A DNA stretch of 58,243 bases from positions 1 through 58,243 of the forward strand of contig NW_013546611.1 in NCBI RefSeq assembly GCF_000760515.2. The letters are read 5' to 3'. Positions 1,777 through 58,230 of the stretch are shown here, piece by piece. Position numbers and translations under genes: made by a program. The notes below the pieces were generated by a model. It made no database searches and was not told where the DNA came from. It saw only the letters and a list, made by a program, of their open reading frames with translations. Positions within the stretch are counted from its first letter, which is position 1, and every line of letters begins with the position of its first letter. The stretch is from Mitosporidium daphniae (Eukaryota > Microsporidia).

Positions 1777-4664
1777 ATGGCAACAAATTTCTGCAATACT
1801 GTAGGAGAATGGCTTTGTTCCAATACTTTATTCTTAGGATGATACGTATGCAATCTTACAAGACATAAGCAAAATCACGGCATACTTTTCTCCCGGCTCT
1901 GCTTCTGCTAAGGAAGGCGAGCATACTTGGCAGCTACATGAAGATTGTTGGAAACGCATCGGTGAGATTTGCAATGCCGTTCTTGCATGCATTAAAATCC
2001 ATCCATCGGCAAACATCTGCTTGTCCGAAATTGAGCCTGTCTTTTTAAAATCGTTTTCATACAATTCGCCTCTTGCACAAGCTTTATCCACATCGGTAGC
2101 ATTATGTCCATTTGATAAGATAGATTGTTTCTGATAGAACAAAACTGTCCGGCAGCGCCACTGAGCTTGTTGCTAGAATCGCCGAAATTTATGTTTATTT
2201 TTCGAAACACTCTGTTGAAAGCTTTTCTTTTTTGGACAACGCGTCATCATGCAGCATGCTTACCAGCAATTCGAGCCAGTATTCCATTTTCGTTGCCTTG
2301 CTAAAACTGTGTGGACGTGCTAATCGCATTTTTGTTGTTCGTTCTATTTCGGCTGTTGAGGCTCTGATAAAAATGGGGCTTCCTGCCCCGTTACTAGTGC
2401 ATCGTGTCAATGAGATGATAGCATCTCAAAACAAATCGCTTAGACAATATGCATCTACGTTTGTGTTGAAATTTCTTGAACAAGGTTTCGTGTTGCTACT
2501 GACTTACTTTAGAGGGCATCGATCTGCAAGAAGAAGAAAATCTTTTGCTAGGAAAATTCCTTTTGGTGGCCATAGCCGATGCCTCACAAGAGGTCCGCTC
2601 AAATGCCGTTGCAGCGTTTAAAATATACCGGTCAAAGTTTCCGGATTTCGCTTCAAGGTTGGATTTTGTTTATAGCTTTGCTAGGTTTCTCGAAACTGCC
2701 TCACCGCATGCTCTTAAGGTTTTGCAAATCAAGGTCAATTTATCTGGAGGCACCACTCCTTCTGTTTTGAGAAGGACTGAACTTTTTCGAAGATCAGCGT
2801 CCGCCTCGACCTCTGCCCAGCATACCCAGTTGAATGAAAAAAACTACATTGTTGGCTCTAATTCAAAGCTTCAAGGATCAAATGCAGCTGACGACGTTAT
2901 CATTTTCTCTGCGCCATCAAATGCCAACCCAAGCGGCGGGGGAAGATTTGGTGCTTCCGTACGGATTTCTAAACCGCCATCGCCAGAGCCATGCTTGGTT
3001 AGCGGGTTTAGCACGATGCAACCACCCTCCTTTGAGGCTCATCACAATCTTAAAACGCCCGCCGTTGTTACTAAGACCAGGGTTTCATCTATTGAGTCTG
3101 GAGCGGCGAGAATTCCGCTTCCTAGACCATCCGGCTCGATATTTATTTCACCGCCATCAAGAGACCCTTGTATGCAAAGCTCAGCCAGCACTATGCCAAA
3201 GTTAAATGAGGAGGAAGATTTTCGGCCACCCGTCATTGATTCTTCGCTCCTTTTTCCGCTGAAAAGCGCAAAATGGGAAGTTAGGGCCAATGTGCTTGGC
3301 ACTCTTAAGCAGCTTTTCTCCAAACGTGGCCAAATTTGTTCGGTTGAAAAGCTGACTAAAATCATACCGCTTCTTGTCGATATCTGCCTTTATGATAAAC
3401 ATGCCAAAGTTGTATTTTTGGCTTTTGATGCTCTTGAAGCTATGCTTGCTCCTTTTGCATGCTGTCAGGCCCCTGGGGACTTGACGGCTATTCTCCATTC
3501 GATCAGTGGCCGATTGTGTGAATTAATTGTAAAAGGATTCCAAACTGCCTTGGCAAAAGGGGAGCGAATCAATAATATTTCCTATCCAGTGGCCCTCAAT
3601 TCGTCTTCCATTGTAAAGCTAATTTCGCTGCTGCTTCATTTGGATGTTACGGCTATGAATTGCCGCGCAGGGTTGTATTTAATCTCGGGCATTAAATGTA
3701 ATTCATTTGCTTCCTCGCAAAGCTTTAGATCTACTTTGCTTGGAACTGTGATCCCTGCTGTTATTGCTCTTCTTCCACTGGCGGTATGCAATTCAAGAGT
3801 GAAGAATATCCTAGATTGCCTGATCTCTTGTAATACCCTTTTTTCGGACAAGAGCTTACGTCCTCACATTGACAAATTACTCGCCTCTTTTTTGATTAAA
3901 TCCCATGCGGTAGTATTGGCGTCGTCAAATAGAGACCCCAGGCTTTCTATGATAATTAAAGGCCTTCCCTCTGCCCTTTTGCATGCTACACAAGAGATGC
4001 AGGAGAATATCCTACTCGAAGAAAGTCTGTCGTTGTCTGTTTCTGCAGCCGAAAATGAACCTCTGATTGAGGAATCTGTGCAATCGTACAGACCAACCAG
4101 CCATGAAGTGCCTTGCATTGCCACTTTTCATGCCGATTCACATAATCATACGAAGGAAAGTGCGGGTGTTCAGAAACTTGGGGATGAAATGGATACCAGC
4201 ACAAGCCCGAACGCAAATGTGGCAACTTCAGTTGAGAGTCCAATTGTAGCAAATGAAGTGCATATGGCTGCCTCAATTTTGCAAGACAACTTGGGCTCCA
4301 GTCAATCGCCACTCCACGCTATCGTTGGCAAAGAAGCTACCATGAACCATGATCAACCACATCCCAATCAGGACGCATTTGCAAACGAAGCTGCTCGGTA
4401 TGATATCACTAATGAATGCGATATCACTAATGGATGCGATATCACTAACGAATGCGATATCACAGATGGAGATGTGTTCATCAATGAAAACTTGGTAAGA
4501 CTTTGTTTGTTTGACGAATGTAGGAATTTGACATCGAATGGTATGACAAGACGGTTATTCTTGATCCCTCGCAGTTGGAAGGATTTTATGAACATATTGG
4601 CGAGTATTCTTTGCCACACCTTGACACTGCATTGGAGCCTTCCAACATACCGATTCACATGTAA
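1777..4664 (+). CDS. CLASP/Stu1-type microtubule-stabilising TOG protein
   Basis: I place five exons: 1777-1800, 1838-2095, 2124-2484, 2513-4494 and 4524-4664, giving 921 residues. The introns are 37, 28, 28 and 29 nt. Exon 1 encodes only eight residues from ATG. The first helical-repeat block contains VHRVNEMIASQNKSLRQYAS and, across intron 3, LLVAIADASQEVRSNAVAAF, which is the CLASP N-terminal/TOG pattern. A second HEAT/TOG-like block begins near LLFPLKSAKWEVRANVLGTL. A Ser/Pro-rich linker between them contains basic SxIP-like segments typical of EB1-binding CLASP linkers. CLASPs bind microtubule plus ends and kinetochores and promote rescue. Removing intron 3 (donor GTTTCG) fuses two otherwise separate frames. 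The acidic C-terminal part carries an 18-bp tandem repeat. Family call good, exact orthologue not settled. Confidence 0.82.
4402..4473 (+). repeat. 18-bp tandem repeat inside CLASP coding sequence
   Basis: Four head-to-tail copies of an 18-base unit (gatatcactaatgaatgc and variants) begin at 4402, 4420, 4438 and 4456; the last is diverged. Because 18 is a multiple of three the frame is kept, and the protein reads D-I-T-N-E/G-C repeated. The copies differ by one to few bases, which suggests recent slippage expansion in a low-constraint acidic tail. Confidence 0.9.
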
Positions 4665-4669
4665 ACTAC

Positions 4670-4822
4670 ATGCAATCGAAAAGACAACATACGAGACCGG
4701 ATCAGCGAGCGGACATCATCCAGTTTCATTATATAAAGCAGTGCATAGCATATCACATCTCCATTGTAGCCGCGATGGCGTTGGCATTTGTATTGATAAC
4801 TTGGTTGTGGATCTTTACTTAA
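4670..4822 (+). CDS. Possible small single-pass membrane protein (50 aa)
   Basis: An ATG five bases after the CLASP stop opens a 50-codon frame ending TAA. The first half is hydrophilic and basic (MQSKRQHTRPDQRAD). The second half, from about residue 28, is a convincing transmembrane helix (ISIVAAMALAFVLITWLWIF) ending two residues before the stop, a tail-anchored layout. I do not recognise the family. It lies in the convergent gap between CLASP and VPS45, so it could also be 3' untranslated sequence that happens to be open. Lack of room for its own 5' leader is against an independent gene, though such spacing occurs elsewhere in this window. Confidence 0.35.
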   Translation: MQSKRQHTRPDQRADIIQFHYIKQCIAYHISIVAAMALAFVLITWLWIFT

Positions 4823-4891
4823 GTTGTTTATTTACAAATAGACCTCATCAAGTCTGCCAGATAACTAAACGAAAGGGATGTCCAATAAATG

Positions 4892-6854
4892 CTACCTTGA
4901 TGAGTTTAGTATGCAAGTTCCTCCAATTAAAAGAGAAGATCCCAGTTCTTGGGCATTGTATAACGAAACAAGCCGCATCTCCTCAAAGGTAACTCCATTG
5001 ATAAGGAATATGATCGCTTCCTTGGGCCTAATCATGAGAATCGCAAAACAGTTAACTTTTCTTTGACGGGTTGGTCGAAAAAGGGAAACTGCTTGTCCGA
5101 TAACTTTCCTTTGATAAGAAGTTCGATCACTTGCTGAAGCTGCGGCTTGTGCCGTGTATAGACCAACTCCACGTCATCCTTTGATGGGAAATAAACCAAA
5201 TTAATGCACTACCTTGATCCCGGACGAAAATGCCTGGCGTGCACGGGTAAATATGGAGTCCTTAAATATGTTCATAGCAGAGGAGTTGGAGCCACTTGCG
5301 TCACACTCAATTTTTATGTCAAGAATGGAGAAGATGCGCCTGAGAGAATCCAGAAACTAAAAGTCTATTCAACACACCAAATACCTCGATTTGTTCGTTG
5401 GTGAGATCTGGAAACAGCTGCTTTATCTCGGAAAAAGTTCTCGATGAATAGATTCCCAGCTTCACGATCGACAACACGGCCAATTTAAACTTCATTGCAT
5501 CGTCGTGGATCAGCTTTTTGGACAGCAGAGACTTTAGTTGAGAAATGATGATTTCGGCCTCAGGATCTACAGAAGCATTGTTTTCAAGACCTAAATACAT
5601 GCCGCCGAAGCCTTTTTTTCCCGAGGCAGAGGAAAGCGTTGCCGACACCAAACTTTGCTCAAATTCGGAAATTTCGTACAAAGAAAGATGATCAACGACA
5701 TTGTGAAGTTTCTCCAAAAGCTTGACGTGTTTTTGGACATTTGCTTCGCGTTCAGAAAACTGCCCGTGTTGCTCGGTAAATCGCTTCATTTCGGAAAGAG
5801 ATTCAATTTTCAAGTGTTTTCCGCGCATGTCAAAAAACTCTTGAATGTACGTTTTAAGAGCAAGGCCAACATCCCCATAATATTTCAGCCTGTTTTCAGA
5901 AAAAAACGGATCTCGAGATTCTTGGAATGAAAGGGCTATGGGGCCGGTGTTCGTCGAAGCAGGCTGCTGATTTTCTTCATCTTGCTCGTCTAGCAGAATC
6001 CGATCGTCTTTAATGTTAAAAAACTCGTGTAGCATTGATTGGTATGACCACGGAATCAAAAGAGGGGTTATCGGGTCGATGCTTCGATCTAAAAGAAGTA
6101 AAATTGGCGCCGTGTCGCACACCCGCGGAAAAGAAAAGAGCTGCGGATCCTCCTTGAGCATATCCTATTTTTAGCAAAAGATGCGCCTACACTCAATGAT
6201 CTTGCCAACTGGTACGTCATTGGCGAGGATGCCATGTACCTAATCAGCGGTCTTTTCTGAAGCGTCAGGATCAATGCAGCCAGCGACTCTGTAGATCGGT
6301 ACAAGGCATCTTTATCCCAATGGCCAATCGACTCTGCAGGCATACAGTGTGGAATGCCAAGATAGAAGGAGCATTCGCTAGCCAGAAATACATCCAAGAA
6401 CAGTTCCTAAACTTAGAAAAAAAATCAACACTGATTTCAACGACTCGCTCTTGAAAGTCCTGCTTTGCAAGAAATTCGATCTGCGATGGCTTGACAAAAT
6501 TCGCAAAGTCTATGCATTAGTCATAGCGAGCGGCACATATGGAGTAAGAGGCGTATTTTGGCGCGGCAAGTTCGGCAGCAAGTGCAGAAATGATTGGCGG
6601 TGTAGGTCTGACAAACACAATGCAATTTAAACACCTCAAGCTGGAACGCAGCTCCACATTTTCAATAAGGTCGACCAGGTAGATCTCCTTGGTGAGCAGA
6701 TAGGAGAGGGGCACGATCAAACTCAAATATTTGATCTACATCATAATATGCAAGTTGCAGATACTGTCGTGGAATCCACAAGCATCACAGTGGGCCCACT
6801 CGCGGAGCGTGTAATAGCATCAATGTACCTCTGAAAGCTCTTCAGCAAATTCAT
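4892..6854 (-). CDS. VPS45: Vps45, Sec1/Munc18 protein of endosomal fusion
   Basis: Eight exons give 588 residues, close to the roughly 575 of the family. Introns lie at 6736-6764, 6510-6536, 6407-6429, 6165-6190, 5357-5384, 5179-5212 and 5028-5056, of 29, 27, 23, 26, 28, 34 and 29 nt. The protein starts MNLLKSFQRYIDAI and continues across intron 1 with the Sec1 block LTKEIYLVDLIEN, then KYASYSIYFANFVKPSQIE across intron 2. Later come PLIRYMASSPMTYQLA, ILLLLDRSIDPITPLLIPWS, the helical domain 3a, and a C-terminus KPKEAIIFLINGVTFEEM. Vps45 binds Tlg2/Pep12-type syntaxins and drives vesicle fusion at the trans-Golgi network and endosome. Every intron is required to keep the frame, and each splice restores conserved sequence. 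It is convergent with CLASP and divergent from HID1. Confidence 0.93.
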
Positions 6855-7050: not shown

Positions 7051-9904
7051 ATGGGGGCCACGGAAAGCAAAATTAACATATGCGATGCCCTCAAGTCCAT
7101 CGCATACAAGGAAAAGATATCGGAGATTGTATTTTATTTTCTCTTTCTATTAGCCATTTCTTGAAGATGAGCATCCCTTCTGGTCCACTCTATGGCAAGA
7201 CCAAGGGCTGCCGCTTGAGGAGATACTTGAGAAAATCCCTCCAACAGTAATCAGAGAGGCACTCCATTCCAACCCAGAGGCGGTATTAATCATCCTCACA
7301 AAGGTAAGCCCTTTCGTCTCTCAAGCGCAGCTTGTTGCCGTGATCAAGGAGTTTCTCGCACCCACCTTTTCGGGCCAGTTTCCCAGTGTCCGACAATACG
7401 TGGCAGATTCGGCCACCATCCAAAAACTGCTACATGCAACGCGAATGCTATGCAGGATCCTTCCGATCATATTTGAAGATCAGAAGCTACGAATCCTTTT
7501 TGCTCAACAGCACTCTGTGCCTATAGGCAGTGCCGTTGACTCGACCGAAGAATGGGTACACGATTTGCTCTTTTTTTAGTGTGGACTGGCGCCAGCTGTT
7601 CTTGATTTGCTCTTTGTGCCTGGGTTTACCATCCCTCCCAATGCCACGGACGAAAATATCAAGGTTTTCTACTCGATCTGGGAGTCCGGAATTGGTTCTG
7701 AAAAGCAGGTAGAGTCGTTCCAACAAATCGACCTCAACCGCATGGAAATCATACGCCTCATTCTTGTGCTGTTTTCATGGCGCATGTTCCAGGAGCCATG
7801 TATTAATGTCCCTTCCTATTTGTAGCTTCGCGAGAGTTACCGCCATTTTCTTTTTTTATTGCGTGTACCCTGAAGGAGCCGCTCGTGCTCTCGCTTTTGT
7901 GTTCATTGCTCAACGTGATTCTTAAATTTGACCCGAATGGCTGGGGACTACCGTAAATCCATTCGCATAATCGTTCATAGGTATTCGCATCTTTTCTTTG
8001 CCGACGAGTATTGCGAACAATTTGCTTCTCTTTGCGTCCAATTACTAAACTTGCTGCTTGATTTTGACCCCGCCACATATCTACTGGATGCAACGCCTTG
8101 CCCATCTGAAGAACCGCGTGCAAATCACACTTTGAAGCCCGAATTGACTCCAGAGCCCCAGCCCGTTTCTATTCCGGAGTCGATATCCCCTGAACCCGTT
8201 TCAAACTGCTCCGTGACCGAATCGAGCCCAGAATTGGGGGTCGGTGACCTTTTCAAGTCCCCCATTCTAGATGATGTCAACCTTGCCAGCGCAAAAGCTG
8301 AAGATATCAAAGAAAATGATCCCCCCACCCATACGAATACACGCTCGTTGCTTGAAGATGTCCCTCTAGAAATTGATATCACTGGTCCGTCGCTCAGAGC
8401 AATCATATTTGGCCCCGAAACCTCGGGCGACATCAAGGTTAGTCTGCTTGTCTTATTTTTTTAGACGTTCGGCAATAGCTTCCGAAACTACTTGGGCAAG
8501 CTGTACCGCGAATCCGACTTCCGTCGGATTTATGCAGGCTTTTTGGCGTTGTTGACCAATCCCATTCGGGTAAGTAATTTCCCCACTTGCCATAGGCTTC
8601 TTCGGCAGTGCTCCCTGCATCTGTACATCAGATTTCGGTCTACCCTGAGATCATGATTCTACTGTGGAGGCTGATTGATCTCAATTCAGCCTTTTTCAAG
8701 TTCATCGTGTATGAGGAATCGATCCTGGACTTTGTCTCGGCATTGACATATTACGCCTCGGAGGCTGAACTCGATCAATGTAAGTGCGTTCTTTTAAATC
8801 CAGCTGCCGACGGGTTGGTACACCTATCCTGCTTTGTGCTGCTGCAGCTTAGCAGTGAGCGCGAACTGGCCATCAGGCTTAACACACCGTATACGGATTT
8901 TCGGGTCCACGGCCGACACTTGCCTGAATTTTCTGGCTCATATGGAGACTTTTTCGTGCTATCCATGGTTCGGATCCTTGGGGCCAGCAGCAATCGCCTG
9001 CTTACGATTGGTGAATGCCTGTTGACGGCAATTCTGAACATTTCGCCATACTTGAAGGTGCAAATACCCAAGTTTATCTTTTAGACTCTTTCTCCCGTCA
9101 CAACACATCGGCTTATTGCGTTGTTTGAACAACTTGCACGCCTTTCCGTTGACCGCTCATCGATACCGCATGCCAAGTGTGCCCACCTGCTTCTACGCAC
9201 GTTCACCACCATGATGCAATACCAATACGACGGCATGGTGTGTCTGATTGCTGGATTAATGCGTTCAAGAGCTTTCTTCGAGACACTTGCCAAGTGGCGG
9301 TATTCAGATTATGTCATGGGCGAAGGCATCGGGTCCATTTTCAAACGGGATCCGGAGATGCAAGCGGAGATCTCTAGTACGCATCGTTGGACCGAAGAAG
9401 AGGTAAATGTGGCAACTGATCCGTAGTTCATGGAAGCATTCAAGCTACTTGATTGTTCACTGCTAGTCAGTGTCTTTAAGTGCCTCGATCCTGATCTCAA
9501 GTTGCTACTCAAGTAAGTTTTGGTTCAGTGCTGATTTTTGCATTTCCCTGTTGAATGTTTCCCGCTTTTGTATCGATTTATTTAACAATAGAAGAGATGA
9601 TGCCGTCGTAGCTGAGGATGAAATGGTGCGGTTTCTGCGCAAACGCACGCTAGTGGGGTTGGTACCACTCAACTATCCTCTACAGGTGATCCGCTTTAGA
9701 ATGAGCCCAGAGATCCAATCGTGGCTCACCTCATATATGTATGGAATTGTTTGTCTGCATCAGGAGCAGGCCTCGATCTGGAACAATACGGCCATCAAGC
9801 TTTTTGTGGTACGCTACGAAGATTCGGAGCAAGGTATGGGCTTGGAAACATCTACCTCAGAATCTGAGTGCCATAACGACATAGTACTGCCTTTAATGCC
9901 TTAG
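7051..9904 (+). CDS. HID1: HID1-family Golgi protein, N-myristoylation signal
   Basis: Ten exons give about 855 residues. Introns are at 7129-7153, 7556-7579, 7800-7825, 7953-7980, 8438-8464, 8570-8595, 9058-9084, 9403-9426 and 9513-9591, the first eight 24-28 nt and the last 79 nt. The start MGATESKI matches the family's myristoylated MGxxxSKL. Conserved blocks follow: RILPIIFED, LNRMEIIRLILVLFS, LLCSLLNVILKFDPNGWGLP, LLLWRLIDLNSAF, ILNISPYLK, MMQYQYDG and, near the end, EMVRFLRKRTLVGLVPL. HID1/Ftp105 proteins sit on the trans-Golgi and help protein sorting; in fission yeast the homologue anchors a deubiquitinase. A stop-free GTAAGC..GCAG stretch of 27 bases at 7302-7328 is left as coding but could be another intron. 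Divergent from VPS45 across 196 bases. Confidence 0.92.
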
Positions 9905-10034: not shown

Positions 10035-11426
10035 ATGAGCAGTGTCCTGGAGGAGGGCATGAAGCGCCTTGCCGTGTCCACAGCGACTGATGCGTTTGCG
10101 GCAAAGGAGCCCTTCTCTATTGTCTTTATTGGCCATGTAGACGCCGGTAAATCGACCCTTGGTGGCCACATCCTGTATGCAACGGGTCAGGTGGACCAGC
10201 GTACTTTAGAAAAATACGAGCGCGAGTCCAAAGAGCTTAATCGTGAATCGTGGTATTTATCGTGGGCACTGGACACAAACCAAGAAGAACGTTCAAAAGG
10301 CATCACCGTCGAGTGTGGAAAGGCATCTTTTGAGACGGCTCGTCGTCGCTTCACTATTCTCGATGCTCCAGGACACAAGAATTATGTGCCAAACATGATC
10401 AGTGGAGCTGCACAGGCAGATATTGCAATCTTGGTCATCTCGGCACGTAAGGGCGAGTTTGAGACGGGGTTTGAACGCGGGGGACAGACGCGCGAGCACG
10501 CAATGCTAGCCAAAACACTTGGCGTCCGCCGGATTGTTATCGTCGTCAACAAGATGGATGATTCCACCGTGCAATGGTCTGAGATTAGATACAAGGAAAT
10601 CGTTTCCAGACTGACAACATTTCTCAAGGGATGTGGCTTCAAGGAGCGAGATTGCGATTTTCTACCACTTTCCGGCTTCACAGGGGATAACCTCGTCGAG
10701 CGAATCAAAAAGAGCATTTGTGCTTGGTATGATGGGCCCTCATTGTTACAACTTCTTGACGAACTGCCCTCATGGGAGCGGAAAGTCGATGCACCCTTCA
10801 TGATGCCCATTTCTGAAAAGAGCAAGGATATGGGCACACTTCTTTCGGGGAAGATCGAATCGGGCTCGCTTGTTCGTGGGTCGCACCTTTTGGTGATGCC
10901 TAATAGGCGAGAGATTGAAGTGACCTCCATATTTTTTGAAGGTTCAGGTGAGGTTGAGGCTCAACGTGCGTCTTCTGGCGACATTGTTCGCATCAAAGTA
11001 AAAGGAATTGAGGAGGAAGACGTCTCGCCAGGATTTGTACTTTGTGATGTGGATCGTCCAATTTCCGTGGTTACTCGCTTCATGGCACAGATGATGATAG
11101 TCGAGCACAAGAATATCATATGTCCGGGATACACTGCTGTTATGCATGCCCACTCGCTAGTCGAAGAGGTTACCATTATCAAGTTTCTTTTCCTACTTGA
11201 TCCGAAGACTGGGGAGAAAACCCAAGCAAAACCAAAATTTGCAAAGCAAGGCCAGACGCTCATTGTCGATATCAAGTGTTCAGGCCCCGTCTGCTTAGAG
11301 ACGTTTGAAACGCACCAGCAACTGGGTCGCTTCAATCTCCGCGACGAGGGAAAGACCATTGCAATTGGCAGGATTCTGCGCTTAGCTTCCTCCTCTGCCC
11401 CTACTGACTTGCATGTCAGTCAATAA
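10035..11426 (+). CDS. SUP35: Translation termination factor eRF3 (GTPase), without N-terminal extension
   Basis: A single-exon protein of 463 residues starts at the ATG at 10035. The EF1A-like GTPase motifs are intact: P-loop GHVDAGKST (about residues 33-41), DAPGHKN and NKMD. Domains 2 and 3 follow, with the eRF3-specific PFMMPISEKSKDMGTLLSGK. The closing domain-3 stretch FNLRDEGKTIAIGRIL is typical. eRF3 works with eRF1 to release nascent peptides at stop codons. Most eRF3 proteins have a long N-terminal region carrying PAM2 or a prion domain; here only about 24 residues precede the GTPase domain, so poly(A)-binding-protein contact through PAM2 is unlikely. HBS1 is the main alternative, but the domain-2 signature favours eRF3. 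Confidence 0.93.
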   Translation: MSSVLEEGMKRLAVSTATDAFAAKEPFSIVFIGHVDAGKSTLGGHILYATGQVDQRTLEKYERESKELNRESWYLSWALDTNQEERSKGITVECGKASFETARRRFTILDAPGHKNYVPNMISGAAQADIAILVISARKGEFETGFERGGQTREHAMLAKTLGVRRIVIVVNKMDDSTVQWSEIRYKEIVSRLTTFLKGCGFKERDCDFLPLSGFTGDNLVERIKKSICAWYDGPSLLQLLDELPSWERKVDAPFMMPISEKSKDMGTLLSGKIESGSLVRGSHLLVMPNRREIEVTSIFFEGSGEVEAQRASSGDIVRIKVKGIEEEDVSPGFVLCDVDRPISVVTRFMAQMMIVEHKNIICPGYTAVMHAHSLVEEVTIIKFLFLLDPKTGEKTQAKPKFAKQGQTLIVDIKCSGPVCLETFETHQQLGRFNLRDEGKTIAIGRILRLASSSAPTDLHVSQ

Positions 11427-11679: not shown

Positions 11680-12095
11680 CTACTTGGCGGCAGCAGTGGC
11701 GATCTTACGGGCCCCAGAAGCTGCACCAGCCTACTGTAAAAAGTATATACCCTACCTTGTAATTGAAGCGGGGGACATGGCGAACGCGGCGTCCATCACG
11801 GGAACGTACTCTCACCACGCGCGAATGAATGGCGCATGAGACACAATATTGCATCTTGATGTAGAGCTTTGGAAGGGCATATTCGTCATAAACGGATGCT
11901 TCGGAGATGTCGCGCACAGCGGCGCTTTCAACGATGTTTCGGACAAGGAATCGTTTGACAGCCTTGTCTTTGGGTGTGCAGCGCCCACAATTGACACAAC
12001 GAATGGGGTTTACATGTCCGCGACCGTGCTTTGAACGTCCACAATTTCTACGTTTTTGGGTCTACAAAGAAAGATAAATTAGCATGATCTACCAT
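11680..12095 (-). CDS. RPS26: 40S ribosomal protein eS26
   Basis: Three exons encode about 119 residues. Exon 1 is only the ATG at 12095-12093, followed at once by a 31-nt intron (12062-12092). A second 25-nt intron lies at 11731-11755. The protein reads [20 protein letters not shown], then [39 protein letters not shown] and the second zinc pair CVSC, all diagnostic of eS26. eS26 sits at the mRNA exit channel of the small subunit. Splitting the start codon off on its own exon is common in ribosomal protein genes of fungi. It is convergent with eRF3. The C-terminal tail is a short Ala/Lys sequence rather than the Pro-rich tail of animals. Confidence 0.95.
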
Positions 12096-45977: not shown

Positions 45978-48763
45978 TTAATTGTAATTTTCAAACATAG
46001 TCATCTCCAGCTTGGTTTGCAAAAACACCAAATATTTTTTTAGTGAATTCTCATCCAGAGAGGTGGATTCAAGTATGTTCAGCAGGGCCTTTGCCTGCTA
46101 ATGCACATTTATCATACAAAGGCATACCATTTTTTGTGCCTTTTCGTTTTGCAGGTGCTTGATCCTGCCATCTGCCTTTTGTTTTGTGCTATTGACGCTC
46201 GCTCTTATCGTGGAAGATATGTCGTACGCTGTAGATATGATTGCCTGATTGGAGATGTAGTTTCTTGCAATTTTTAGCCCTTCAATGATTATGACAGCCA
46301 CGGCATACCGTATTGATGGTCATTTTTGTAGCCGCTAATTAGTTTATACGAATGAATTATCTGGTCCGTGGCTAGTTGGGATAGCTGCGAAATAAAGAGC
46401 CTGCTCACTTACACTTGATTGCATATGAAAACAGGCGACATTGGGATGGTACGACAGGGCTCTGATGATCTCGGGAAACGAGCTGATGGTAAATGTCGTG
46501 GCCTAAACGTACAAGGAGATGATGTGGACTACCTCTGTGTTTGCCAAGTGCTCAAAGATGGTGAATAAAAGTGCAATGCCTTCGTTTGGTGCAGTACTTT
46601 GGCAGATTTCGTCAATCAAGATCAGGGAAGAATTAGGGGCATCTTCAAAGGCCTCCAGTGAATAAAAAGTTCTTTCCACAAAAACAAGCTCATTAAACAG
46701 CGAAGACGAATTGTTGATCGAGGAAATAAGGTTTGGCATCACCGTTTGAATATTTGTGATTATCTTTAACGAGCAGTACTGTGCTGGAACAAAGATCCCA
46801 ATTTGTGCCATAATTTGGAAGCATAAAATTTGCTGCAAAATGCTGGACTTGCCGCTCTACCATTAAAGCGATCACGGGGGGAAACACGGTACTTGGTTGA
46901 GACCGGAAATCAATATCAGATTTACCCCATTTCCAGAATACACCGAGTTTTCTATGACCGACCCAGAAAATTGGTCCGAGCTTTTCCCAAGAAGAATGGG
47001 ATTTCGGCCTCGTTTAATGGCCATCACGTTAGAAAATACAGGCTTCACTGACGAATTATGCAATGCAAACCACGCACCGGTGTCATTCAGCAGCGAATAC
47101 GTGGCGTTTGAAAAGAGCACATCCAAAAGAGAAATGCCCTCCATGATATTATGAAACAAATAGAGCTTTGTCTGTAAACTATTGCACAGGCCCACCAGGA
47201 GTCTATACATCAGGGAACGTACAACTTGTGCGATAGCAATAGGATTTCCGACTTTGCCTCGCTTAATCTCCCGTTAAGTTTGACCTATGGCCGTTAGCGA
47301 AACACGCAAACAAGGTCAAGGGTAGCATAAAGAAACTTTTCGTTTTCCTCCTTGACAAGTATGAATTGGGGAGGAGGACAAGCGGAACGAGCGGCGTTAT
47401 CAATGTTTTCGTCCTTTGAGTATGAAAATAGAAACCCGTATTTTTTTGACGAAACCAAGTTGATGTCCGGATATTGCTCTACTCAAAAGCAATGCAACAA
47501 AATACTTGCAACAAAAAAATAGTATTCCAAAATATCGTCACACAGTTCAAGATAAATTCTCCTTGCTAAAATGGCGATAATCATCGTAACGATACCAATT
47601 GACAACAGGGTATTGTGTTGCGACCTGACCTGAAAAAGCTTATAGTGCAATCTTTTCTGGGAGTTGGTCAGTTTTTTGATGTCCACAAAAATCTTGGGCG
47701 CATCAACCTCAATAAATGAGGCCAGTTCTTCTTCCAAACTTTCGAAACTATTCTCAAGTAGGATCTAAAGCAAAAAAAAGCGTTGGAAAACCTTTTTGAC
47801 TGCACCGAATATTGGGGAGCCGAGGCTACTTAATATGCTCAAAATATTCTTTAATTCTCCAAGTGCCGACGTCAGGTCGATCAGCGATTGGATGCTGAAT
47901 TCAATATCAGAAAGCCGCTTGAAGTTAGTAAGAGAAGTGCATCTTCTCAGCACTTCAACGCCAAATTTAGACAGTTTGGCGAGAGAATTTCCCAATCGGT
48001 AATATTGCTCCTGATTGGACACCAGCTCTTCAACGCCATTTAATCTCTGCAGTATTTCCTCTTTGTCTATCAATGGCTGCAAAATGTGCTGTCTAAGCAA
48101 CATTGCTCCCAAGTTTGTTTTTGTATGGTTGAGACGATGGAAAAGCGTGTTTGTTTTGTTCATCGGATCTGAGCTTGTGTCCAACGAATATTTATAAGAG
48201 GTTTTTGCATCAATAAAGAGCCTCTTTTGATGCTGCCAGACGGCAAACGTAATCGGATCGATAAGAAAATTTAAAAAGTGCAGCTGCAAGTACTTAAATA
48301 GTCCTGAAATTGCGGATCTACAATAGCTCTTATCCATCAGATAATTCTTTATGCTTGCAGGCTCAAGAAAATACCGGTCCACAAGCACATGCACTTCTTC
48401 TGCCCGAAATAATTGCCTCGCAGCGGCTTCAATTGAAAACTTTTTGGCAAATAAATCGTGGCAAAGATCTTCTAAAATGGATTTCAATTTGACGCATTGA
48501 TGGTCAGGTATTACGATGATGCCTGGCTCATTTGCAACAATGCAATTCGAAACCAGCGAGTAGTGACTGGTATCTTGGAACTTTGAGGAAAACGAACGTC
48601 AAACCAATACCTCTGCCAGCATTATGCTCTTCGACTTGCTATCAAATATTGAGATTCCAAGCTTTGCTTTTGCGGCTTTCGATTCGAAAATGACGAGTAT
48701 CGTTTTGGATACGCTGGCACCGGAATCCTCATTGTCGTCCACTGCATCGTCCAAATATTCCAT
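45978..48763 (-). CDS. MSH4: Meiotic MutS homologue MSH4 with diverged ATPase motifs
   Basis: Twelve exons with introns at 48581-48610, 47765-47791, 47566-47595, 47479-47505, 47285-47311, 47203-47222 (or to 47225), 46857-46892, 46503-46532, 46385-46412, 46280-46308 and 46098-46127 give about 823 residues with a closed frame. Conserved parts: TLFHRLNHTKTNLGAMLLRQ, LLSIARRIYLELCDDILEY across splice 3, ISLLDVLFSNATYS and the P-loop region LILISGLNQSGKSSILQQIL across splice 7. Then come IMAQIGIFVPAQYCSLKI and YGLKIARNYISNQAIIS across splice 10. MSH4 pairs with MSH5 in MutSgamma. The usual GPNMSGKST is GLNQSGKSS here, and the Walker B tail DELGRGT is DEICQST, so ATP hydrolysis may be weakened while D-E remains. 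Confidence 0.9.
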
Positions 48764-49145: not shown

Positions 49146-50992
49146 TCAATGGTGGCGTTTTTTTACATACTGTCTTCTAATATCACTTAAATACGCACCC
49201 TTCAGATCTAGTGACTTTGAATCTCCTGGGTCAAGCCAGAATTTTAAACTATTTGAACGCGAGGATTTCGTATGCATTGACGCAAAAATTGAGCCAAAGA
49301 TATCAAATCCGGTTGGGTTTTTACAAGATGAGGCACCGCCATGCAGCTGCCCGACAATCAATCCATCCTCGTTGAAAAGCGGAGCGCCAGAGGAGCCAGG
49401 CTCGGTAACGCCTTTACTCCATCTGCTGACCTTCCAGTGGTAGTTTAGTGGACATTCGTTCCAGCAACTCAAATAAATTTTATCAGGTTGACCGGAATCA
49501 GGTGTCACTATGGAGATTTTTTTCACATCTCCGGAAGGATGGTGGATACAAGCGGCGGATTTGGGAGCGATTTGAGAGGCCGACCATCCTGCCAGGAACA
49601 CGCGATATTTTGAGGGGATGCGCTCTTGAACCTCGAAAAGTGCAAAATCGGACTCTTTGGAACGAGCTAATGGGGGTCAAAATGTAGCCACTTACCTAGC
49701 AGCTTTAGCCCTTGTACGGTCTGCGTTAGGGGCCAATCCCTTGGCGTGTTCACACACACTTTGGATTGGTAGTTAAACCCAAGAATATTGTAGCGAAAGT
49801 CCGAATTAAACTCGTTCACACAATGGTCTGCGGTCAGAAAAAGCTGCCGACCATCGAGATTCCGATTGTTGATCATGGATCCACTGCAAAATTTCTGCCC
49901 ATTTGAGGTCATCACGATGGCTACCGACTTTGCTTGGTCAAGAAGCTTGCTGCACTCTGAGCAAGCTGGAGCATTAACGTTACAAATGCCTGCCCTTGTG
50001 CCGTTTAAATTATCGGCTAGCTGCTCTTGAAATGATTCGTTATTTTCTTCATTAGAAAATTGGGAAGAAATGGCCTCGCATTGGGCCTCGAATTCTGGCC
50101 GATCGTCCAAATAGGTGGAAATTGAGCGAAATCCATGCACGACGGAGAAAATGTGCAAAATTGGGTCTTCCTTGACAAACTCTGGAGAATAATACTCGAT
50201 GAGCAAGAAGGATCCCGGAAGCGGAGTGGTGGCGAATTTCATGTGTTCCTTGTTGTTTACAGCGGCCGTGTATGCACCCAGCATTGCGGTTTTTCCGTGG
50301 ATGTAAAGCTCGCTTCCCTCTGGAAGCCAGAAACGGTCAAAAAGAAGATTCAGCGAAAGCGCCGTTGGCGACTTGATACCGAGCTTGAGAATGCGCCCCA
50401 GCCCATTCTTCAATGTGTACCACGTGCCTTTTGCAACAATGTCAATGTCCACCGTGATGCCTCTTCCAAAGGCAAACGAGCCGGAGTGGATGGCCAATTG
50501 TCCCATCAATGCAGCATTAAGAGTTCCCGCTGATGCGTCTGCGTCTTCGGGACGTTTCTCGCCCTCATTGAACATGCTGGTGATGTTTTTTACCAAAGCA
50601 TCCTCAGGCATTTCTGGCGGCTTGAACGCGCCATATGCATTCGCAAGCTCTACATCGTCGTTGCGAGATTCATTATTTGGCAAATATTTATCTTCTTGAT
50701 CTCCAGAATGTTGCCCTTCATTTTCGCCATTAGGAGGATGATAATTGATGGGATCAAAGCCGGCATAAAAAAATTTGCTTCGGCTGTTTTCCTGCAGAAG
50801 AGTCTGCAACATCAACGCGCAATTATCAAGCTTTGGAAGCTGAATAATCGAAAGTAGTTGATTATCGATGTCTACGTGCTGCGAATCCCTTAGCGATTTT
50901 TTTAGAACTTGTAGCCTTCCCGGCCGCTGCGCTTGTCCATTTGCAATCGATGCTGCGACAAAGAAAAGCAAAACGTACGAAAGAAGAAGCAT
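49146..50992 (-). CDS. Secreted lysyl-endopeptidase-like serine protease (S1, bacterial type)
   Basis: Two exons (49696-50992 and 49146-49666, intron 29 nt) give 605 residues. A clear signal peptide starts the protein (MLLLSYVLLFFVAASIANGQ), followed by a pro-region of about 290 residues. The catalytic domain has all triad residues: His in LFLTADHCVNEF, Asp in RSKESDFALFEV (made by the splice) and Ser in VTEPGSSGAPLF. Between them lie IHHPSGDVKKIS and GQLHGGASSC, hallmarks of Achromobacter protease I/lysyl endopeptidase-like enzymes known mainly from bacteria. Paired cysteines near GICNVNAPACSEC fit a disulfide-rich secreted enzyme. It probably came by horizontal transfer and then gained a native-type tiny intron. 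The C-terminus may continue past 49146 through another exon. Confidence 0.9.
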
Positions 50993-51155: not shown

Positions 51156-52107
51156 TTATTTTGGCTGGGATAATATAAATTCAATTGCTGCCTCCACGTG
51201 ACCACCGGTAGCCAAAAGTGCTCGTATATTCATTGATGCATCGTGGAATCCCATATCAGCAAGCTGGGCGAGCTGCACTTGGAATCGCTCTTCGGGAGGA
51301 GGAAGTGCCGGCGAAGAGAGCATTGGGGCGGCGAACGCCGGGCTCCCGGCGCTTTGGGCAGTGGATGGGACACCACCTATGTCATCATAAAATCGCATCA
51401 ATACGGCTACCAGCGGGGTTCGAAAATGCTGACATCATTTGCTGCATCAGGGCCGGGTCGCTAAAGGCTTGCATTGCTGCCTGCATGGCCGCTGGGTTTT
51501 GTAAAAACGCGTTATTTCCTAAACATGATGATGATGATCAGGGGAATACACCATCTTACCCGGTTGTTGGCCTCGCATTGCCATGTTCAGGAGATCCGGG
51601 TTAGATGCAAGTAGCTGGGTTGTTTGGCGCAGAAGCTCTGGATTGGATAGCATTGCTTGCATTATTGCAGGATTCAACGAAGAGGCTGCAGATGAAAAGT
51701 CTCCTGCTCCGCCCATAAATTCGGATCCAAACATTCCAGGAAAGGATGGGGCTCCAGGATTTGGAGCTACTACGTAACAATTACTACCATAAAAGGTTAC
51801 CGGAAGGCTCACTTGCCAAAGAAGTTGGTTGTGAGGAAGCTGGAATCTGCGCAGCTGTTTGAGACGACGTAGAAGCACCTGATGTAGGGATACTTTTTAC
51901 AAGGTGAATGGTGGCATCCTCGGCTACGCCAATCGAACCAAGAGTGTCTGAATCTTTCAATACTCTTCCGGAGAATATAAGACGCTGAGAGGAAGCGGGG
52001 ATCTTCATTTGCTCGTCAATCTTGGCTTTGAGCTCGCAAACACTGGTCGACGCTTCGACTACAAATGCTCGTTTAGCTTCAGAGGAAGACTTTATGAAGA
52101 TTTGCAT
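51156..52107 (-). CDS. DSK2: Ubiquilin/Dsk2 shuttle factor (UBL-STI1-UBA)
   Basis: Four exons with introns at 51767-51800, 51519-51559 and 51377-51410 (34, 41 and 34 nt) give 280 residues. The N-terminus is a ubiquitin-like domain, MQIFIKSSSEAKRAFVVEAS to IHLVKSIP. The middle has STI1-type Met/Asn/Gln-rich repeats such as LSNPELLRQTTQLLASNPDL and FSDPALMQQMMSAFSNPA. The C-terminus is a UBA domain, QLAQLADMGFHDASMNIRAL and HVEAAIEFILSQPK. Dsk2 carries ubiquitinated clients to the proteasome. It is shorter than yeast Dsk2 (373 residues). Intron 2 contains a gat/atc triplet run. It is divergent from the Mak5/DDX24 helicase, 62 bases apart. Confidence 0.95.
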
Positions 52108-52169
52108 ATTAGCAATTAAAATTAAAATTTATCTTTGGGGTTTATATTTTTTCCATACATTTATTAAAA

Positions 52170-53979
52170 ATGCCGCCTCGTCATCAGGACGAGCGAGTGG
52201 TTTCCCTCGATGACGAGCTAATTTCCATGATGGAATCGGAGGCTCCCCAACTCGAAAAAAAACGGGTTCAGCAAAAAAGACCAAACAAAAAAAGCAAAGT
52301 CGTCAACAAACCAGACGAAATTAAGATTCCTCTGCATCCAAAGCAAGTCCCAGAAAACCTGCCTGAACAATGGACATGTTACAATCTCAATCGTGCCTTG
52401 TTATTGTCTTTAGAGGCCCTTGGTCTTGGCTTTCCAACTCAAATCCAAAAGCTTGTTCTGACGGAAAGTTCCCGATGCCAAGTTGGCACTCTTCCGGACG
52501 TAATCGCTTCGGCGCCTACTGGCTCCGGAAAAACTCTTGCTTTTCTTTTGCCATTACTGAATGCTATTTTATCTCCCATTGGGTCGCGATCTTCGCAAAC
52601 GTCGCCTTCTGAATTGTACATGTCTACCTGTGCTTCAGATTTGGAGGGCTCTGAAGGGCCTAACTCTGGCCTCTTGAAAAACAATGTAGAGCCCATCTCT
52701 GCATTAATCTTGGTACCAACAAGAGAGCTTGCATTTCAAATACATTCCGTTGCATTGGACTTGGTTAAGGGCTCAAATATCAGGGTACCAATTTCTTGTC
52801 GTTCATATTCATCATTAGGTAGCCCTTCTGACGGGCGGGATTTCCGTTCAAAAGCAACATCGAATTTTATCTAAAAAAGTAGATGTGCTTATTTCTACCT
52901 CCGGTCGCCTTTGGAGTCACGCTAATGATGAAGAGCACGTCTCTCTTAAAATAAAAGAGCGACTTTCGGCGCTATCGTTTCTTGTCATTGATGAGATTGA
53001 TCGGATGACTGAGGGTTGCGGTCGGTTTAAAGAATTGGAGTCAATTTTAGCACTTCTTAACCCTATTGCAACGATGGTTTTCTCCGCAACTTTCGATAAC
53101 TTGAAAAGTTCCGCCTTGTTTAGCAAAATCCCCTTTCCCTCAAAGGCACCGCTTTTTTTGTCCACATCCACCGCGGAGATGAAAAAAACCCCGCTCTCCG
53201 GTCTAGCTTCCAATGTTTCGGTGCTCAAGCTTCGATGCTGTATCCGCGATAAAGACGCCTGTCTGGTTGCCCTGCTAGAGAAGCCACCTGTTGTCCCAAC
53301 AATTGTGTTTGTCAATTCAATTGCAATGATAAGGCGTTTATGCTCACTTTTGCGCCTTTTGGGGATCAATGCATTGCCGCTACATAGCCAAATGCCTCAA
53401 AGGCAACGTTTGAAAAACATCGATCGCATCAAGTCCGCACTCAATGCCGACAAAAGCCCAATCCTGCTTGCAACGGATGCTGTTGGTCGAGGCATTGACA
53501 TTCCTCATGTTTCGAGAATTATCCATTTCCAGGTCCCTCCAACCCTTAGCCAATTTATCCATCGGAGCGGTCGAACAGGAAGAGCTGATGCATGTGGTGT
53601 ATCCTACCTCTTGATTGCACCAGATGATCATCAAGCATCGGCATCTCTTTTGAAGGCTGCAAAAGCCCTCATTAAAGAGGATCCGCAGTTAGAAAATCTT
53701 TTATGGGATCCAAATGTTTTATCCAAAATCAAGGAGCGTCTTGAAATTGCTACACTCGTTGATTCTTTTGAACATAAAAACAGGAAAGTCCAATCCGATA
53801 AGACATCAGCCTTATTCCTTGATGAAGACGAGTCTTCAGTACAGCATAGCGCGAACAAGAGACAAAATCTTCAAGGAGCCATGCCGTATGATGAAGATGC
53901 TGTCGTTGAGCAGCAGATCGCCTTGTCGAAATTGTCGAAAATGAAAAAATTGCTTGTTAAATTAAATGCTAAACACTAA
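52170..53979 (+). CDS. DEAD-box helicase of the Mak5/DDX24 type
   Basis: Two exons (52170-52784 and 52819-53979, intron 34 nt) give 591 residues. The Q-motif region reads LSLEALGLGFPTQIQKLVL. Walker A is SAPTGSGKTLAFLLPLL, motif Ia PTRELAFQIH, motif Ib ISTSGRLW and motif III SAT in MVFSATFDN. Motif II is D-E-I-D (VIDEIDRM) instead of D-E-A-D. The second RecA domain has IVFVNSI, LLATDAVGRGIDIP and HRSGRTGRA. Splicing at 52785 restores RVALLTGGISVQKQHRILSK, which is how Mak5/DDX24 reads (GGxxxxKQxRIL). These helicases act in 60S ribosome assembly. The specific subfamily assignment is less certain than DEAD-box status. Confidence 0.88.
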
Positions 53980-54180: not shown

Positions 54181-56783
54181 CTAAAGGTCTTGATCCATCC
54201 ATAGGGACCTGGTAATAAACAGAGAGTCATATTCCTCCCATTCCCGCCCATTGTTACTTTCAGAATCTGATTCAACATCCGTAATTAAAGAATCAAAGGA
54301 GGCATTCATTTGATCTATGATCGCCGTACGCGTGTTATTAAGTTTGGCCAGCTCGATATCCTTATAAATGATGTAGAACTTTGGGAGAAATAGAGCACAT
54401 AGGGTGACAAGCATAGCCACTAGGTTGCTGATTGTAAGCTCAAAATATCGAGCACGCTCCGAATATTTGTAATCGCCAGACACAGCATAAAGGGGCAGCG
54501 AAATGATAAGAAGAGCCATGTAGGTGTATATCGTGATCGCAATATATATACTCTCGTTAAAGGCCGAGTCTACATTTCTTGTCAAATAAGCTATGACTCC
54601 GAGAGATATCAAAAGTATCCCCATACACACGAAAGATAGAGCGAGACAAACAGTTACAAGGGTATTATCTTTTGCTGAACACACACGGAAAGATATAAGG
54701 GAATCGGTTTTTGAAGTTATTATACGTGAGATGTTTTCGCTCGAAAAGGTAATGATCAAAAGAAAAATCGACAACACAAGGATGAGCGTACCTGAAAAAA
54801 CCAAAAGATCTCTATCCTGGATTACGGGGGTAGATAACCTGGCGTTGGAAAAGATCTTGAAAATCCTGTACGTTTTTGCAAGGATGTTCCCTAAGATGAG
54901 GCCAAAGCCGAGAAGAAAAAACCAAAGCATCATGATGCAAGTAAACCTTGTCGATTGAATACTTCGAAATATATTTCCGCCTAAGCAAAGTATTACGCCA
55001 ATCAAGATTAGGATACAAAACAGCGGAGAAGATTTTTTAATCGGAGGCTTTTCTCTATAATAGCAAATCAAGCCAATAAAGATCAGGCTAATAATGATAA
55101 AAAAGATCGAAATTGAGGTTATAACTATCCCGCCAACGTAATCGAGAGTGATAACTTCTGGAATGATCGCGGACACGGGAATGGCTTTGCCACCGCGAAA
55201 GTTCAAGGCGCTATAATTAATTGTGGCAATTCCGTCTTTATATAGACCTATCTGAGTTTCCTCTGGTAAACCAACAAATTGGAGATAGGATATTGATGGA
55301 TTTACAGGGCTGTTGTTGGGAATCGAAATCGAGCCCAGGGCTCTTTCAATTGTCAACTTTCTGATTTCATCCAAGATGTTTACTCCAGTAATTGCGGAGC
55401 AATCAAATGAAGTCTCAATTCCAGAATCGCAATCACGAATCATACCATCCAATGCAAGAGCAATCGCATAAATAGAGTCAAGAATTAGACTTGATACGGC
55501 CTATTTTGTGGTTAATTAACTGATTTAGCAATCCTACTGATGCTGGGGTTTCAAAAAACGTTTCGTTTCCAATGCAGGCGCATTGGGCAGGAAACACTCT
55601 GCTGGGAGGTGCGTCTAAACATATGGTAATTCCTTTAGTATCGGAAGAGCCTTGAAGCCCAGTATAGATGCATCTAAAGGCTAGTTCAAAATAAGTGGAC
55701 AATAGCTTAGAATATGAAGGCTCCTTAGACAATGTCTCATAACAAGCTTCGATAAATTTAGTTTCAGCAATTTTTGGAGATATGCTAATGGATCCTATAA
55801 TTAATAGCTAAATCTACCAAGCATATAAGATTGTGGAAACGACATCAGCGAGTATGGCAATAGACTGAAAACGTTGACGAAAGATGTCGAAGCCAGCACA
55901 AAAGTCACGTCCCTAAGCGGTGGATATTCGTAAAATAGCTCGAAAACGGTCACCGTTGTCGAGGTAGAGGTAAATAATATAATTATCTTTACATCGGCAG
56001 GAATTGCAAGAAGACATTCGGCAATTCTTTTGATGATTGGCCTCGAGCTATTATAGTCAGAGGGCCTGAAATCCAAGGGCAAAATTTGCGAACAAACAAC
56101 TCTGATGTCGTTGCTTGCAGCCAGCTTGGAAAATATGCCTTTGACCTCATTGCCATACAAATAATCTCCGTAAAGAGCCGAAACTAGGGTCCAATTCATA
56201 GCCTTTAAAAGCTGGACAACAGAGTTTGCAACATCAAATCCATCTGGATTAAATCGAATGTAATTGGGCGAAGTGGTTGCAGAGCTCGGGGAAGTAAAGT
56301 CGATGTACCCAATCTTATAGTTTTGCAAGAACACTAAGCTTAATGCAGATTGGAATGCAGATCCAGTGCCTTAAAATAAACTGTCATTGGATTACCTAAA
56401 ACGAGCGTCACATCCTTCTTTAGAATGTAGGAGATGCATGATGTTATAGCCCCAGTGTCGGAAAAGATGGGATCAATATCTTCATAGATAAGCGTCAAGT
56501 TTGGAATTATGGAAATGTTTCTGTTGATGTAATTGACACCGCAAACGAACGCAATTGTCTCTTGAATGCCTTCTGAAGAAAAGAAATCAGACACATCCAA
56601 GCTTTGCGGGAACATACCCCCAATTTTAAAGATCTTGTCCTTTTTCGCGTTGAAGATTGCAGGTTTTGAGAAATAGGAAGAATCACCATACGAATTTGTG
56701 GCCATCGCTGAAGCTTGCCAAATGTGGCACAGTAAGAGTGCTAACGGCCACAGTGAATGGAGCATAGCTGGTAAAATGACCAT
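54181..56783 (-). CDS. Class C (GABA-B-like) GPCR with Venus-flytrap domain, paralogue 2
   Basis: Four exons with introns at 56370-56395, 55795-55817 and 55501-55537 (26, 23 and 37 nt) give 838 residues from the ATG at 56783. A signal peptide MLHSLWPLALLLCHIWQASA begins at the second Met. The ligand domain includes FVCGVNYINRNISIIPN, SAFQSALSLVFLQNYKIGYI restored by splice 1, LLKAMNWTLVSALYGDYLYG and a cysteine-rich junction RVFPAQCACIGNETFFETPA. Seven membrane helices begin near YVGGIVITSISIFFIIISLI. They share LAKTYRIFKIFSNARLSTPV and FNESIYIAITIYTYMALLI with the receptor at 25-28 kb, so the two are paralogues. The acidic C-terminal tail differs. Splice 1 uses an unusual ..TTTTAAG acceptor. 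The ligand is unknown. Confidence 0.92.
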
Positions 56784-56889
56784 ATGATGAAAGAGCAGTT
56801 TTTTAATACGTGTAAACCTTAGCGCGCCAAAACATTTATTAGCCCTACACTTGACACTTTTCTGAGTTGAAACCAAAATTACGGGTCAT

Positions 56890-58230
56890 TTAAATATTAG
56901 CACCCAATTGGGAACTCCAAACGTCTTCCAGGTACCTTTTCTCCCCAATTAACGATTCAAACCTTGCCGTTGCATCCTGCTTTTGCAGTTTAAAATGTGT
57001 TTGCAACATCTGGATCCATGTTTCGGCCACGGCTTTGCTCATTCTTTCAGCATCCCCACTCACCAGAATATGGGCGTTTTTCTCTAGCAAGGGTAACACC
57101 ATTTCCGATTCCTTGAGCAGTCTATCCTGAACATACTCTTTGGGAATTTTTTGAGAAAAACAAGGAAAAAACGACGTTATCGTTCCATTGCAAACATACG
57201 AATTTAAAAGGGACAAATATGGCGCTTCATCCTCTGACCTGCATCCATAAAAAAGCAGCACCTCGCCAACGGCACCACTATTGACCGGCTTTGTTCTTCT
57301 GGCATTCTTTCTAAACTCACGCTCTTTTAAAAATCCAATAAACGGAGCAATCCCAGAACCATTCGCTATAAGTATCAGCGGAGTGGCTTGATCTCTCGGT
57401 GGTTTGAATGAAGACCGATGAATAAAAATGCGAATTCTATCACCGACATGACACTCATTCGCTTTCAATAAAAAAGCTATAAAGAATTACCCAAATAAGA
57501 AGATGTCATCCCGGAGACTTCCTTTCCACAGGCAGCAGTATAGCTCAGATAAGAAAGGAGCAGCTGAATTTCATTGTTTTCGATCTATGCTGGTTAATGG
57601 AGCCAAAAAACCAATGGACATGAGGCAATAGAATAAAACCGGTAGGAAATTTTTTGGAAAACCTCCGGTATGACTTCGATGCTTAATTCAATTGATGGGA
57701 ATTTCTTTATAAGCTCAAGAACGGTCACGCGGCTGGCCTTAATTTGACTCAGATATGTTTCCTGCAAAAAGAAGGGCATAACATACCTTTGACAATGAAA
57801 TTTCCTTCAAGGCTTTTTTTTCCTCGCCATCGCTTGCAAGCTGTGAAAAAATTTTAATTGAATATATGCAAGCAGCTGCAGAGAGGTCAAAATAGGAGGT
57901 AAATAAATTTCTAGGAGTGCCTTTAATGGCCTTATTTCCAGAGGAACACAGAAAGGATAAAACAACAGATTCCGCCGTTTCTTTGAGATTAAATATTGAC
58001 AGAGCCTCTTGTACCTGACTGGGCTTATTTTCAGGAAATATGCCAACATGGTCTCCCGGTCGATAATGTATGTTTGAATCGCCCAATCCTAGCGTCAAAG
58101 AATAATATTTGGATATTTGGGTCTTCTGAAGCAAAGCGGCATTAAATGGGGTTTCTGCAGTGTATTTTTTAGTAGGAGATGATGGCACGGTAGTTTTGAT
58201 GGCCCCACTATGCATGGTAGAAGACGTCAT
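56890..58230 (-). CDS. FAD/NADPH-binding reductase module (P450 reductase/CPR family), possibly 5'-truncated
   Basis: Four exons with introns at 57762-57786, 57585-57611 and 57462-57490 (25, 27 and 29 nt) give 419 residues from the ATG at 58230, which is 13 bases from the window end. The FAD domain shows YTAETPFNAALLQKTQ, then IHYRPGDHVGIFPENKPSQV and the FAD-binding RFYSIASCPLIENNE, restored by splice 2. The NADPH part has PLILIANGSGIAPFIGFLKE, LLFYGCRSEDEAPYL and AHILVSGDAERMSKAV, ending YLEDVWSSQL. This is the ferredoxin-reductase half of diflavin reductases. A flavodoxin/FMN half may lie beyond the window, or the gene may lack it, which would be unusual. The frame upstream stays open to the edge. 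Confidence 0.87.

Follow-up and report, generated by a model that had tools for sequence, protein, structure and literature searches.

The window studied here, the 58,243-nt contig C60 (NW_013546611.1) of the Mitosporidium daphniae assembly (4.66 Mb, 147 contigs), carries a series of protein-coding genes that appear to be interrupted by ultra-short spliceosomal introns. M. daphniae, an early-branching parasite of water fleas, is placed taxonomically in the Microsporidia. In the window, our final model predicted 91 introns distributed over 26 gene models; one is 129 nt long and the other 90 measure 23–41 nt. A further two, which we positioned manually within an MSH4-like gene, brought the total to 93 introns in 25 genes (Table 1). 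These counts agree well with a preliminary description made from the letters alone, which had assigned some 87 introns to 23 genes, with only two exceeding 43 nt and most in the ranges of 23–36 nt (86 of 91 in our list) and 24–30 nt (64 of 91). The same description regarded the introns as a genome-scale population, and this held in the larger sample described below.

Size peak and density of the predicted introns

The data set consisted of the window and other M. daphniae stretches totalling 282,150 bases (29 sequences, 6% of the assembly), which were analyzed with a purpose-written two-strand gene finder combining a 3-periodic coding model, an antisense state and introns of free length. In the first search, only GT and AG were demanded at the ends and every length from 15 to 200 nt was equally likely; under this uniform prior, 167 of 294 introns fell at 22–40 nt, compared with 9 at 15–21, 24 at 41–60 and 94 at 61–200 nt. 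Ten decoy end-pairs used in place of GT-AG as controls placed only 42–72 calls at 22–40 nt, and the total for GT-AG was the best by 178–482 nats. When splice-site matrices were added and all lengths from 12 to 300 nt were equally likely, 253 of 323 introns lay at 22–40 nt, one at 18–21 and four at 12–17 nt, which places the lower limit of length near 23 nt.

The final model, with a learned length prior and a donor matrix, yielded 393 introns, not counting those that coding calls on the opposite strand overlapped; 382 of the 393 were 41 nt or shorter, and introns were found in 19 of the 20 sampled stretches that were 7 kb or longer, as expected of an ultra-short-intron genome in which most introns genome-wide are below about 40 nt. 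For the analysis of signals we used 381 introns of 22–41 nt lying away from sequence ends, omitting any intron that opposite-strand coding calls overlapped by more than 5 bases; the window contributed 81 introns to this set and 91 to the gene list, from which opposite-strand overlaps were not omitted. The lengths of the 381 introns averaged 28.3 nt (median 28, standard deviation 3.4) and were spread over all three frames (125/137/119 by length modulo 3); 23 of the 125 introns with a length divisible by three lacked a stop codon, a class against which the finder is biased. The density was 1.58 introns per coding kb, and 100 of 143 complete gene models of at least 100 amino acids (aa) contained introns. 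At loci outside the training set (L031–L047, overlapping partly with each other and with the first set), the learned length prior gave 42 new introns, 39 at 22–32 nt and 3 at 60–201 nt.

Protein continuity and genes of the window

Retention of a single intron cut the reading frame short for 82 of the 91 window introns, and the continuity of conserved proteins across the junctions was followed in several genes. Against a profile built on 36 relatives of VPS45, with the M. daphniae entry excluded, the spliced product of the window's VPS45 gene (599 aa) scored 442.2 bits and the unspliced one 9.0 bits, and each of the eight forms retaining one intron scored below the spliced form (9.0 to 435.7 bits). 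The deposited M. daphniae Sec1/Munc18-like protein, 475 aa long and scoring 302.9 bits, was 100% identical over 74% of the spliced VPS45. Its model shares four of eight junctions with ours, indicating that the deposited annotation holds part of the intron population. It starts at residue 145 of our model, that is, within the gene, and uses another last exon, encoded near position 4814 on the minus strand, with which our model reached 437.3 bits.

Two MutS-family genes were labelled MSH4 and MSH5 after the naming of the earlier reader. Against a profile of 34 relatives, which where named were called MutS or MSH2/MSH3, the gene at 35421 scored 213.6 bits when spliced and gave no match when unspliced, and its spliced product matched Pfam MutS_III and MutS_V; retention of 3 of its 11 introns cost only 5.6–12.4 bits, making those introns less sure. 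Through the two hand-placed introns, two separate MutS models become a single MSH4-like gene of 832 aa; this extended the MutS_III match from 15–173 to 15–194 of 194 profile positions (70.0 to 77.4 bits) and slightly lowered MutS_V (96.6 to 94.2 bits).

Spliced products of other genes likewise matched known families. The caleosin product, whose frame without splicing meets a stop after 54 of 221 aa, covered positions 3–168 of 170 of the Pfam Caleosin profile at 183.5 bits. The Hid1/Dymeclin-like product matched Pfam Hid1 (345 bits) and Dymeclin (218 bits, 1–641 of 673), the SET-domain product covered positions 2–105 of 105 of its profile, and the ADA2 product contained ZZ_ADA2, Myb, SWIRM and TADA2A-like domains, as expected of ADA2. 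The product of the gene at 25252 combined Pfam 7tm_3 and ANF_receptor, the architecture of a class C receptor; judged by eye, the gene at 54181 resembles it. The gene at 17565 encodes a product matching CytochromB561_N at 35 bits over residues 421–495 only. The intronless eRF3 gene provided an internal contrast; the first among the matches listed (best 120 of 7981) was a 92% relative (P0001, source ena), possibly a metagenomic organism closely related to M. daphniae.

An antisense model at 51236–51777 with two introns was removed from the window list, a 14-nt call of an earlier model at 6378–6391 was superseded by 6407–6429, and the earlier-model intron 9513–9591 was superseded by 9501–9528.

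Table 1. Gene models and predicted introns of the window, with introns in gene order; (w) marks weak introns, whose retention does not shorten the frame.
Gene	Position	Strand	Number	Introns	Basis
	1777-4664	+	4	1801-1837, 2096-2123, 2485-2512, 4495-4523 (w)	gene finder
VPS45 (Sec1/Munc18)	4828-6854	-	8	6736-6764, 6510-6536, 6407-6429, 6165-6190, 5357-5384, 5179-5212, 5028-5056, 4865-4895	gene finder + profile
Hid1/Dymeclin-like	7051-9904	+	9	7129-7153, 7556-7579, 7800-7825, 7953-7980, 8438-8464, 8570-8595, 9058-9084, 9403-9426, 9501-9528	gene finder + Pfam
eRF3	10035-11426	+	0		gene finder + homology search
	11680-12095	-	2	12062-12092, 11731-11755 (w)	gene finder
	12201-14505	-	1	14313-14340	gene finder
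Caleosin	14670-15429	-	3	15237-15268, 14991-15018, 14818-14851	gene finder + Pfam
	15781-17491	-	1	15837-15861 (w)	gene finder
	17565-19262	-	7	18613-18644, 18473-18500, 18350-18380, 18184-18210, 18038-18067, 17722-17749 (w), 17623-17647	gene finder
	19904-21615	-	2	20926-20952, 20626-20651	gene finder
	21804-24890	-	1	22143-22271 (129 nt, the sole long intron)	gene finder
Class C receptor-like	25252-28068	-	5	28021-28055, 27774-27798, 27528-27551, 26949-26978 (w), 26662-26688	gene finder + Pfam
	28308-30000	+	2	28797-28826, 29952-29976 (w)	gene finder
	30184-31639	-	3	31473-31506, 31201-31233, 30844-30879	gene finder
ADA2	31878-33760	-	7	33671-33708, 33429-33458, 33162-33188, 32831-32855, 32578-32602, 32498-32529, 32408-32433	gene finder + Pfam
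SET-domain	33815-35339	-	2	34653-34682, 34093-34117	gene finder + Pfam
MutS-family (called MSH5)	35421-38162	+	11	35472-35496, 35621-35646, 35728-35758, 35902-35926, 36019-36046, 36083-36106 (w), 36175-36198 (w), 36381-36407, 37211-37236, 37813-37835, 37919-37953	gene finder + profile
	38964-39455	+	2	39068-39096, 39241-39268	gene finder
	42468-45461	+	1	43535-43558 (w)	gene finder
	45509-45935	-	1	45596-45626	gene finder
MutS-family (called MSH4)	45978-48763	-	10	48581-48610, 47765-47791, 47479-47505, 47285-47311 (by hand), 47203-47225 (by hand), 46857-46892, 46503-46532, 46385-46412, 46280-46308, 46098-46127	gene finder + Pfam
	49146-50992	-	1	49667-49695	gene finder
Presumably ubiquilin-like	51156-52107	-	3	51767-51800, 51519-51559, 51377-51410	gene finder
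	52170-53979	+	1	52785-52818	gene finder
	54181-56705	-	3	56370-56395, 55795-55817, 55501-55537	gene finder
	56890-58230	-	3	57762-57786, 57585-57611, 57462-57490	gene finder

Splice signals and splicing machinery

The sequence context that the GT-AG search had not used was non-random: the 167 short calls had G at −1 in 58%, A at +3 in 71% and T at −3 in 78%, whereas T at −3 occurred in only 36% of the calls longer than 60 nt from the same search. The mean match to the 9-mer complementary to U1 was 5.01 of 9 in the short calls and 4.30 in those above 60 nt; in the final model it reached 5.36 at introns compared with 3.61 at exonic GT, a difference that is partly circular owing to the donor matrix. 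Among the 381 introns, TAG acceptors prevailed (313, with 40 CAG and 28 AAG), the final exon base was G in 237, and +5G was more common without G at −1 (74/144 compared to 90/237, P = 0.014). The donors, described earlier as loosely GT, do begin with GT but favour AAG/GTA, the slash marking the exon-intron boundary. GT-AG ends together with a donor context complementary to U1 are what is expected of U2-type introns. Once spliced, the coding sequence of the window still contained 2,094 GT...AG segments of 23–41 nt, so ends and spacing alone are insufficient to define an intron and donor context must help.

Branch-site counts were made in 380 introns, one of the 381 containing N. The preliminary description had noted a CTRAY-like branch site "often" near the acceptor; its position stood but its frequency was overstated, as CTRAY occurred in 51 of the 380, compared with 30.9 expected by shuffling. 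With the A located 6–8 nt before the last G, CTRAY was found 30 times against 5.3 expected, and at exactly 7 nt 18 times against 1.6, while YTRAY at 6–8 nt was seen 68 times against 15.6. The example cited there, gactaatgcatag, does lie inside the 27-nt intron 6510–6536 of VPS45. A motif search of width 7 from eight starts gave log-likelihoods of 84–90, compared to 6–13 in shuffled introns. Putative branch sites lie some 7 nt upstream of the acceptor, although they are weak. Where CTRAY lies close to the intron end (47 introns), intron length correlated with the donor side (0.88) far more than with the acceptor side (0.36), and the distance from the donor to the A of the inferred branch site had a median of 18 nt in 107 introns with YTRAY.

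Genes for U1, U2, U4, U5 and U6 small nuclear RNAs (snRNAs) were found, with one match each above the curated cut-off. U1 carries ACUUACCUG near its 5′ end, U2 contains GUAGUA and U6 ACAGAGA, and the recognition elements of U1, U2, U5 and U6 look canonical. U2AF35 also looks canonical: with a 27-nt intron left out, its product matched Schizosaccharomyces pombe U2AF23 (chain 4yh8) over residues 1–187 at 286.9 bits, and that intron (606–632 of locus L046) separates EKDK from VNCSF within the U2AF35 gene itself, probably at a position that human U2AF1 has in common. The preliminary description had supposed that such density and size would press the spliceosome to a near-minimal intron, and suggested inspecting U1, U2, U6 and the SF1/U2AF proteins for adaptations; pressure of this kind with visible adaptation was not supported, given the canonical appearance of U1, U2, U5, U6 and U2AF35 and the introns of 15–17 nt published for Stentor and mikrocytids (PMC9505925; PMC10245619).

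Competing explanations and known systems

The position, size, signals and frame of the segments, the protein continuity in the genes tested, and the presence of the five major snRNA genes and a U2AF35 gene lead us to assign a probability of about 94% to U2-type spliceosomal introns of M. daphniae reduced in length to a tight range of ~23–38 nt. U1 would pair with a donor of the AAG/GTA form, U2 would engage an adenosine ~7 nt upstream of the TAG acceptor, and U2AF35 would be available to read the acceptor. We infer that the segments are removed from RNA, and most of them appear to be marked by donor context and spacing more than by branch sequence.

Several observations weigh against this reading. 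Retention left the frame unshortened for 9 of the 91 window introns, although these are supported by signals and model fit, and two of them (36083–36106 and 36175–36198) also have 9–12 bits of homology behind them. One of the 20 stretches, the 10-kb L013, had no predicted intron. Exon-by-exon searches lacking a eukaryotic control did not identify SF1 (PF16275, PF22675), U2AF65 (TIGR01642; 34 matches, none above the cut-off) or RED (RED_N). The decoy end-pairs, too, gained 1177–1481 nats over an intron-free model, compared with 1659 for GT-AG, because decoys skip the same interruptions.

L013 has a G+C content of 0.38 and one frame of 2,221 aa takes up most of it. The one PF22675 match above the cut-off contains two KH domains and an arginine-rich start, which sets it apart from SF1, and is presumably KHDC4. 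Four U2AF65 candidates from the TIGR01642 matches (on C120, C136, C78 and C64) did not resemble U2AF65; we take C78 to be RBM39-like and C120 to be CstF64-like. Also relevant to splicing, a published study found that M. daphniae lacks an identifiable CLK kinase gene (PMC12795684).

The gain of the decoys over the intron-free model is what would be expected if the interruptions were sequencing or assembly frameshifts or gene decay, bridged by chance GT...AG pairs. Such an origin is nevertheless highly improbable given the much weaker size peak of the decoys, the non-random donor, acceptor and branch contexts, and the interruption of a conserved protein by all eight VPS45 segments. Segments lost from DNA before transcription or skipped by the ribosome are a further alternative, as the internal eliminated sequences of ciliates and the byps of yeast mitochondria have similar lengths; GT-AG ends in agreement with the U1 5′ end, a positioned branch adenosine and the snRNA genes make this scarcely credible.

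Within the spliceosomal reading, the longer introns raised the question of branch-site use. YTAAY was present in the last 22 nt of 11 of 13 longer introns compared to 81 of 380 short ones (P = 3.6e-6), and CTAAY occurred in just 4 of 110 upstream 20-nt windows of the long introns. This would fit two splicing rules served by one canonical-looking spliceosome, with ~97% of introns (23–38 nt) recognized by donor context and fixed spacing, an A ~7 nt upstream of TAG and hardly any branch sequence, and the few longer ones needing YTAAY; introns of this lineage would have shrunk before they were lost, so that length was already part of the signal by the time other microsporidia shed their introns and became stricter in their motifs. 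However, the contrast was spotted only after the list of 13 had been seen, and it was not repeated at the loci outside the training set (1/3 long and 10/39 short, P = 1), which lowered our estimate for the two-rule scheme to that of a doubtful one. A single branch-site rule for all spliceosomal introns, with the strong branch sites of the longer ones a small-sample accident, is a reasonably probable alternative, and we treat the YTAAY enrichment as a lead.

In the passages on Mitosporidium covered here from open-licence papers we found no description of the intron population, and the word "intron" is absent from the main text of the Paramicrosporidium genome paper. Gene models miss such introns: besides the deposited VPS45, the M. 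daphniae caleosin gene was called intronless in a survey (PMC6309107), a statement at odds with the three tiny introns predicted in the caleosin gene of the window. The donor-to-branch distance inferred for M. daphniae, ~18 nt, compares with ~50 nt required in human extract (PMC6692369).

M. daphniae is described as one of two sequenced microsporidian species that diverged earliest (PMC7017984), and its 1.58 introns per coding kb set it apart from the intron-poor members of the phylum, 15 of which average 0.01 (PMC8476143). This early divergence, together with the dense tiny introns and the canonical-looking U1, U2, U5 and U6, suggests that shrinkage came before loss.

Tiny introns as such are a known kind, found in Paramecium, Stentor, mikrocytids and Encephalitozoon cuniculi. 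Paramecium introns are likewise U2-type with GT-AG ends, mostly <40 nt and with medians of 24–25 nt (24 nt, range 15–100, in P. bursaria; PMC12862383); Paramecium, however, is a ciliate, and M. daphniae introns are mostly 23–38 nt with a floor near 23. Stentor coeruleus shares the lack of a strong branch consensus and a branch position fixed near the acceptor, but its introns are shorter (15–16 nt) and nearly uniform, and its last exon base is reported to be unlike the G usual in mammals (PMC9505925), which M. daphniae has in 237 of 381 introns. Mikrocytos mackini is likewise a parasite with many tiny introns (16–17 nt), but its 224 introns are conserved in sequence and only U2, U4 and U6 were identified (PMC10245619), whereas M. 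daphniae has looser introns as well as U1 and U5. E. cuniculi belongs to the same phylum and has introns of 22–76 nt, comparable in the smallest sizes, but only 34–37 of them, with fairly strict donor and branch motifs and no U1 identified (PMC3629993), in contrast to the dense introns, looser motifs and U1 with a canonical 5′ end of M. daphniae. To judge from the open-licence papers covered here, the novelty lies in high density, loose motifs and canonical-looking snRNAs occurring together in one early microsporidian.

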